A stretch of DNA of 42,797 nucleotides, from assembly GCA_021372695.1 (NCBI GenBank), contig JAJFTY010000194.1, positions 1 to 42,797 of the forward strand, written 5' to 3'. The notes beneath the pieces were generated by a model that was not told the DNA's origin, did no database searches, and was given only the letters and a program-made list of their open reading frames with translations. Made by a program: the position numbers and the translations under genes. Each line of letters starts with the position of its first letter. Positions within the stretch are counted from its first letter, which is position 1. This document shows, in pieces, positions 5,664 to 6,473 of the stretch. This DNA is from Deltaproteobacteria bacterium (GTDB taxonomy: Bacteria; Desulfobacterota; Syntrophia; Syntrophales; UBA5619).

Positions 5664-5726
5664 TCCGCCTCACATCATCCGGCCGGAGTGGACCGGCCGC
5701 GGGTACAAGAAGAAAGGAGCGGTTTT

Positions 5727-6473
5727 ATGGAAGAGACGATCCTGATGGCGCACGGCGACCGAATGACCGAGGTTCCCCGGGCGGCGTGGGAGGAGGGGGT
5801 CAAGGCTGCGCCGGCGCATGTGGCGGAAGGCCTCACCTTCATGACGGAGGCCCATCACCGGGTGCGCAACTTCGTCGTCCGGGAGCTGCCCCGGGCCGGG
5901 TCGGCGCTCACGCCGGAATCCATCGCCGGGTCACTGGCGCTGACCGTCCCGGAGGTCCGGGCGATCCTGGACGAGCTGGAGGCGCACATGACCTTCCTGT
6001 TCCGGAACGAAGCGGGCGCAGTCGCCTGGGCTTACCCCGTGACGGTCGATTCCACGCCGCACCGGGTGACGTTCGACACCGGAGAGAGCCTGTACGCCGC
6101 CTGAGCGATCGACGCAATCGCGACGCCCTTCGTGCAAGGGCGCTTACGGGGCGAACCCCTCTCTGTAAAGGTCGAATCCTCCTGCGCCCGATGCGGCGCA
6201 CCCCTGAGACTGAAACTGGACAGCGAGCTTCGGTGCGAACTCCTCGAAGGCGGCCGGGAGCCGATGCTTTTCCATCCCTTCGTGGACTTTGCGACGCTCG
6301 CGGAGCCGAGCATCATCAACGCCTTCTGACACAAGTCCCAGTTCTTCTGTTCAGAAGAACATGCCCGGAGCTACCGCACCGGCCATCAGGTCCCGGACGG
6401 CAGCTTCTACACCCTGGAGCAGGGGGCCTGGTTCGACCGGATCGTCCAGTCCGCGCTCTTTGCCTTTCGGTAG
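5727..6473 (+). CDS. merB: MerB-like organomercurial lyase homologue with two in-frame UGA codons (probable double selenoprotein)
   Basis: The frame from the ATG at 5727 (AAAGGAG 7 bases upstream) runs 248 codons to TAG at 6471 if UGA at 6102 (codon 126) and 6327 (codon 201) are read through. The product aligns with MerB along most of its length: an N-terminal winged-helix-like part, then LYAA-U-AIDAI against MerB LYAW-C96-ALDTL, SSCARCGAPL against SHCAATGAPV, and NAF-U-HKSQFF against QSF-C159-CHVHFF, followed by a matching C-terminal end. Both UGA codons coincide with catalytic cysteines, and catalytic Asp99 is kept (Asp129 here). MerB cleaves the carbon-mercury bond by cysteine attack and aspartate protonation. 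MerB Cys160 is His here. A nonsense-mutated pseudogene is the alternative, but two hits confined to the two catalytic Cys codons, an otherwise intact frame and a hairpin after each UGA argue against it. Confidence in homology is very high; confidence in selenocysteine decoding is good. Confidence 0.85.
6105..6142 (+). promoter_or_regulatory. Candidate bacterial SECIS element 1
   Basis: Directly after the first UGA (6102-6104), a perfect 7-bp stem CGCCCTT/AAGGGCG (6124-6130 and 6136-6142) closes the 5-base loop CGTGC (6131-6135). The loop starts 26 bases after the UGA and has G at its second position. This fits the published bacterial SECIS consensus (apical loop roughly 16-37 bases after UGA, at least one G among its first two bases). 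The sequence is also coding, as expected for bacterial SECIS elements. Confidence 0.6.
6330..6360 (+). promoter_or_regulatory. Candidate bacterial SECIS element 2
   Basis: After the second UGA (6327-6329), 11 bases lead to a perfect 8-bp stem GTTCTTCT/AGAAGAAC (6341-6348 and 6353-6360) with the tetraloop GTTC (6349-6352). The loop begins 19 bases after the UGA and starts with G. The 11-base offset to the stem is close to that of the E. coli fdhF element. The stem is the strongest local fold visible here. Confidence 0.65.

Follow-up and report, generated by a model that had tools for sequence, protein, structure and literature searches.

A MerB-like gene family with UGA at both catalytic cysteine positions, predicted to encode double selenoproteins

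The 42,797-nucleotide (nt) stretch analyzed here (the window), contig JAJFTY010000194.1 of a Deltaproteobacteria bacterium (GCA_021372695.1), carries a gene for a 248-residue protein related to MerB, the organomercurial lyase (Table 1). A first-pass annotation of the window described a reading frame broken only by UGA at codons 126 and 201, and translation of the gene confirms that these two TGA codons are the sole in-frame stops before the terminal TAG. The protein matches the Pfam MerB domain (PF03243; E 6.8e-16, score 58.8 vs a gathering cut-off of 27), and structural comparison also supports the MerB fold, with lyases as the nearest folds. In MerB of plasmid R831b, the catalytic residues are Cys96, Asp99, and Cys159. 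A phmmer alignment to MerB from the Protein Data Bank (PDB), along which residue equivalences were counted by hand, agrees with the annotation in setting the first UGA on Cys96 and the second on Cys159, and it further aligns Asp129 with Asp99 and Cys153 with Cys117. Among the matches listed, 32/32 database rows aligned at the Asp99 position have Asp, and 32/32 at the Cys117 position have Cys.

Scanning genome contigs returned three relatives of the window gene, whose record titles name Deltaproteobacteria (L001, 68% identity), Acidobacteria (L002, 47%), and Dehalococcoidia (L003, 47%). TGA stands at both columns in each of them, and like the window gene they encode Asp at the Asp99 position. 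The four sequences were combined into a profile (A1) and searched, with stops read through, against 395, 400, and 396 genomes from the respective phyla of L001–L003 and 155 from the class of L001. Strong matches spanning both columns numbered 15, 4, and 8 in the phylum samples, and the class added 9 new ones, giving 36 genes from 35 genomes. With the window gene included, TGA is present at both columns in 37/37 genes, whose pairwise identity averages 48% (range 25–96%, 666 pairs); the start of one of them, L088, is missing at a contig end. No other stop occurs within any of these matches, so the random nonsense codons that the annotation had named as a sign against selenocysteine (Sec) are not seen in the strong relatives. 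Outside the 37, G1223 retains both TGAs with a frame break upstream, and G960 and G1059, cut by contig ends, show the second TGA only. Weaker matches (15, 9, and 4 rows in the three phylum samples, including fragments of 40–90 residues) were excluded from the counts; the 12 weaker MerB-like matches with columns read comprise six Cys/Cys, four Cys/UGA, and two UGA/UGA forms. The two-UGA arrangement recurs in several distant bacterial groups.

A SECIS-like hairpin (SECIS, selenocysteine insertion sequence) follows each UGA, the first weaker than the second. The spacing and loop rules of bacterial SECIS elements served as the yardstick, and the search accepted only loops 14–37 nt behind the UGA. 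Behind the second UGA, a GGUC or GUUC loop at 19 nt belongs to the best fold in 26/29 genes. In alignments of 28 genes, paired cells amount to 95.4% for hairpin 1 and 90.6% for hairpin 2, compared with 30–63% and 51–66% when the partners are slid. Shuffled alignments still reach 93.3% and 88.8% because most hairpin pairs never vary. By covariation score, hairpin 2 exceeds 500/500 shuffles, whereas hairpin 1 is equalled by 38/500. The closing pair of hairpin 2 changes from UA to CG in 5/28 genes, with Arg208 encoded by CGG and Ser209 by TCG in place of TCA, a switch best explained at the RNA level. For the window's own copy of hairpin 2, comparison with shuffles gave z −3.85. Rfam at gathering thresholds returned no match in the window; the SECIS case therefore relies on our own hairpin analysis.

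Codon conservation across 87 columns of 28 genes gave a mean z of 8.4 in the 12 hairpin columns, which were picked after the hairpin search, vs 0.7 in the other 75. Near-fixed codons include Pro134 CCC (27/27), Gly138 GGG (27/28), and Glu210 GAA (28/28); outlier columns outside the hairpins include 166 (z 10.3), 165 (z 5.8), and 241 (z 5.5). At the protein level, purifying selection (dN/dS < 1, the ratio of nonsynonymous to synonymous divergence) continues behind both UGAs. For the window gene and L001, a Nei–Gojobori script gave dN/dS values of 0.26/0.88 before, 0.18/0.87 between, and 0.14/0.32 behind the UGAs. Across the 17 pairs printed, dN was lower than dS wherever dS could be computed, although dS was saturated in several.

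The annotation had also proposed a check for Sec genes, which we ran in the genomes of the relatives. A selA match over cut-off was found in 27/28 carriers vs 17/22 non-carriers (Fisher p 0.07), the latter being a non-random set drawn from the first-listed genomes without a match. Since selA is also common in non-carriers, the sampled phyla are Sec-rich in any case. ARAGORN detected tRNA-Sec in 20/26 carriers (19/23 plus G002), and selB passed its cut-off in 3/3 carriers tested (G001, G002, and G003). A selD gene was noted in one carrier, G999 (Table 1).

Database searches found 136 relatives, and column states were taken from the 120 that were listed. Most (81) end at column 125, none of them listed with PF03243; 7 end at column 200, 25 read through with Trp in both places, and the remaining 7 are of other kinds. 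Of the seven proteins ending at column 200, six carry Cys at 126 (among the matches listed). In a tree, the 37 genes and these six Cys forms split from 18 other MerB-like rows with support 100/100. The placement of several long-branched outer rows is unsure, and rows L027, L028, and L048–L051 were labelled Cys/Cys from stop-free matches, not from a column reading. The Cys-126 rows lie scattered among the UGA genes (six changes for six rows), which suggests that Cys and Sec replaced each other several times at the first column, with the stops of database entries inferred from protein ends. Alternation of Cys and UGA, which the annotation had suggested looking for at both columns, is seen at the first in these six relatives, and Cys occupies both columns in the six Cys/Cys forms among the 12 weaker matches, which are more distant MerB relatives. 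All 25 Trp/Trp proteins come from contigs shorter than 1.7 kb (22 from JGI), and TGG is found at neither column in the 37/37 genes read as DNA. An RR-type N-terminal motif resembling a twin-arginine translocation (Tat) signal occurs in 18 of the 120 listed relatives (e.g., P0047 and P0051), some with PF10518; certain members may therefore be exported proteins.

Table 1. Features of the window and of related loci
Feature	Location	Strand	Remarks
MerR-type regulator gene, 192 aa	5085..5663	+	directly upstream; PF13411, E 2.3e-14
Shine-Dalgarno-like AAAGGAG	5713..5719	+	7 nt before ATG, read in sequence
MerB-like gene, probable double selenoprotein	5727..6473	+	248 residues; TAG stop at 6471-6473
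UGA codon 126 (Cys96 position of MerB)	6102..6104	+	phmmer alignment; TGA in 37/37 genes
Asp129 codon (Asp99 position of MerB)	6111..6113	+	phmmer alignment to PDB MerB
Hairpin behind first UGA, SECIS-like	6124..6142	+	7 pairs, loop CGUGC
Cys153 codon (Cys117 position of MerB)	6183..6185	+	phmmer alignment to PDB MerB
UGA codon 201 (Cys159 position of MerB)	6327..6329	+	phmmer alignment; TGA in 37/37 genes
Hairpin behind second UGA, SECIS-like	6341..6360	+	8 pairs, loop GUUC
99-residue open reading frame, selA, and SelD with C-terminal AhpD domain, behind the MerB-like gene of G999	L087:4235-7982	-	same strand as the gene
Second-lineage genes	L092:5001-5498, L093:5001-5510	+	GGUC hairpin behind second TGA

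Domain content and fold place the window protein in the MerB superfamily. It lies outside the NCBI MerB and SaoL families, because the tested features of both fail. MerB of R831b (PDB 3f0o) and MerB2 (PDB 5c17) have Cys at both catalytic positions, where the window gene has UGA. Identity to them is about 20%, and some 20 N-terminal residues fall outside the structural match; the Asp99 position is kept, and no mer operon is seen. Scores against the NCBIfam MerB models are 56.4 vs a cut-off of 193 (NF009710) and 51.4 vs 200 (NF033555), and no model in NCBIfam 20.0 is matched over cut-off. SaoL (NF040728), the organometallic lyase of the SAO system, is likewise related to MerB and has its Sec at the second catalytic column, and a 2026 review (PMC13188914) describes it as having one Sec in a Cys-Sec pair. 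L025, one of the Cys/UGA proteins, scores above the SaoL cut-off and has TGA at that column. The window protein differs in having two UGAs and Phe, not Cys, before the second, and it scores 48.9 vs a cut-off of 140; L002 is not listed for the SaoL model. The nearest neighbors of the window gene are MerR-type, FMN reductase, and enolase-family genes, with the Sao models run on part of the open reading frames (ORFs).

Double selenoproteins with a metal role by name, MbdU (NF045648) and the UxxU metal-binding protein (NF041115), appear in the table of PMC13188914 and have two Sec, as predicted for the window protein; their models do not match the window protein at E up to 1, and the table shows no MerB domain for them. 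No two-Sec MerB relative was seen in the part of that table examined (119 families or subfamilies according to the review itself), although Haft and Gwadz 2023 or Haft and Tolstoy 2025, which define SaoL and several double selenoproteins, could mention one. A Sec-containing MerB-like protein is included in a 2022 review (PMC9312934). The one-Sec form is known, and no two-Sec form turned up in NCBIfam 20.0 or in the examined part of the 2026 inventory.

The gene neighborhood varies. Against the curated mercury MerR model, the window's MerR-type regulator scores 34.2 vs a cut-off of 150.85. A MerR-type gene adjoins in five loci (the window, L001, L069, L073, and L075), and MarR-type genes do so in five others, one group upstream in L066, L067, L071, and L072 and another downstream in L002; Pfam was run on two of the four upstream genes. 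No neighbor was common to all loci examined, with genes called by a longest-ORF rule and opposite-strand ORF clusters inside the gene set aside as overlaps. Genes for a PAS histidine kinase and a universal stress protein also lie near the window gene, as do those for the FMN reductase and the enolase-superfamily protein. Between the MerR-type and MerB-like genes, a perfect 7-bp inverted repeat (CGGCCGG/CCGGCCG, 5680–5699) is a candidate operator or terminator stem.

We also considered a link to hgcA (mercury methylation). HgcA passed its cut-off in 12/28 carriers vs 2/22 non-carriers. In one phylum sample, it was found in 10/15 carriers vs 107/380 other genomes at E 1e-60 (Fisher p 0.003), and in 9/15 vs 105/380 over the curated cut-off (p 0.016). 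Within one class the association fades (7/10 carriers vs 40/68 non-carriers), and we dropped it as functional evidence; shared ancestry or habitat would suffice to account for it. One HgcA match over cut-off has an in-frame TGA (G999:C102:948-1898); a Sec-containing HgcA appears in PMC13188914.

Both UGAs are, with high probability, read as Sec, which would make the product a double selenoprotein of MerB fold, since the codons are kept across the family and a conserved hairpin placed as a SECIS lies behind each. The annotation's proposal that both catalytic residues are Sec is strengthened by the invariant UGA columns, the six Cys relatives at the first of them, the selection behind both codons, and the presence of selA, tRNA-Sec, and selB in carriers. 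Given two Sec residues, we favor an organomercurial as the main substrate, albeit with reservations, and the explanation that currently seems best, at comparable strength, is a bis-selenolate lyase of organomercurials (or other organometals) encoded outside the mer operon. By analogy with MerB, in which Asp99 is needed to protonate the carbon, the two selenolates and Asp129 would form the active site. One selenolate would bind the metal of R-Hg+, the second would join, Asp129 would protonate the carbon, and Hg(II), held between the two selenolates, would pass to selenide or to thiols of the cell. In the loci examined, the gene lies by itself or next to a regulator gene of MerR or MarR type. 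Selenolates have a higher affinity for soft metals and are ionized at neutral pH, so that faster cleavage and slower release would be expected. The annotation's suggestions of tighter mercury binding and of action on other organometals are plausible. A 2021 mer survey (PMC8261052) raises the question of MerB turnover in the absence of MerA, and this question is sharper for selenolates.

Several results weigh against a double-Sec organomercurial lyase. Hairpin 1 is the best local fold, with its loop at 26 nt, in 19/28 genes, while the other nine prefer another fold; in the window, it beats shuffles only weakly (z −1.58, with 15/200 as good). Six of the 26 carriers lack a detected tRNA-Sec: in G001 and G003 the loci of the best hits contained tRNA-Ser, and in G050, G080, G119, and G121 none was present among the 117 candidates scored per genome. 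In G900, selA was not found, though tRNA-Sec was. No Cys/Cys member occurs within the double-UGA clade among the 120 listed relatives. As for mercury, the 20 other window ORFs scanned contain no mer family match, and MerA passed its cut-off in 1/28 carriers and 0/22 non-carriers (with up to 25 candidates scored in each genome). If the UGAs were not Sec, the gene would have to be decayed, wrongly assembled, or translated with UGA as Trp, and the 25 listed relatives with Trp at both columns fit the last of these. Their short contigs and the lack of TGG in the DNA read suggest that these proteins are instead products of gene calls under code 4, which gives Trp at UGA, and a second lineage described below has a protein in which Cys and Trp occupy the first and second columns, respectively. 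Decay and assembly error are opposed by the same UGA pair in 37 genes, purifying selection, the hairpins, and tRNA-Sec. On these grounds, we rejected all three variants, which together we regard as highly improbable.

Doubt about the substrate is more substantial. A MerB-fold double selenoprotein might instead cleave or bind another organometal or metalloid (methylated As, Sn, Te, or Se) or sequester metal ions with its two selenolates, which we judge unlikely but worth serious consideration. The absence of a mer operon, a MerR-type regulator scoring far below the curated mercury MerR cut-off, the near absence of MerA, the low scores against curated MerB models, and the fading hgcA link all fit such a protein, whereas the retained Asp99 position and MerB fold speak against it. 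Quite improbable, in our view, is a redox or peroxidase-like enzyme that reuses the MerB fold and whose two nearby Sec form a diselenide. According to PMC13188914, a redox role is assumed for most known selenoproteins, yet conservation of Asp99 would have no obvious redox reason, and the nearest folds are lyases.

Other MerB-like proteins with in-frame TGA were also observed. A second, divergent lineage, present in two genomes (L092 and L093), has TGA at the same two columns and Glu instead of Asp99. Both genomes carry hgcA. Its 85 database relatives include 44 Trp/Trp proteins and 37 that have Cys and then end; one protein of the lineage is Cys/Trp. Tentatively, this lineage hints at repeated origins of the double replacement. 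A gene at L026:1501-2085 (+) resembles canonical MerB more closely, scoring 93.1 bits vs a cut-off of 193, and combines Cys at the first catalytic column with TGA at the Cys159 position.

MerB is a classic example of thiols acting on mercury, and a natural version with both thiols replaced by selenolates would allow a direct test of what selenium buys in carbon–metal cleavage. Such an enzyme would also pose the question of how mercury that is held even more tightly gets released. More tentatively, bis-selenolate organomercurial lyases in several phyla, without MerA and outside mer operons, could constitute a hidden route of methylmercury breakdown, with the double replacement having arisen more than once. 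Surveys of merB would miss the family, since gene prediction stops at residue 125 and leaves out most of the MerB domain. If the family does demethylate methylmercury, such surveys undercount demethylators.
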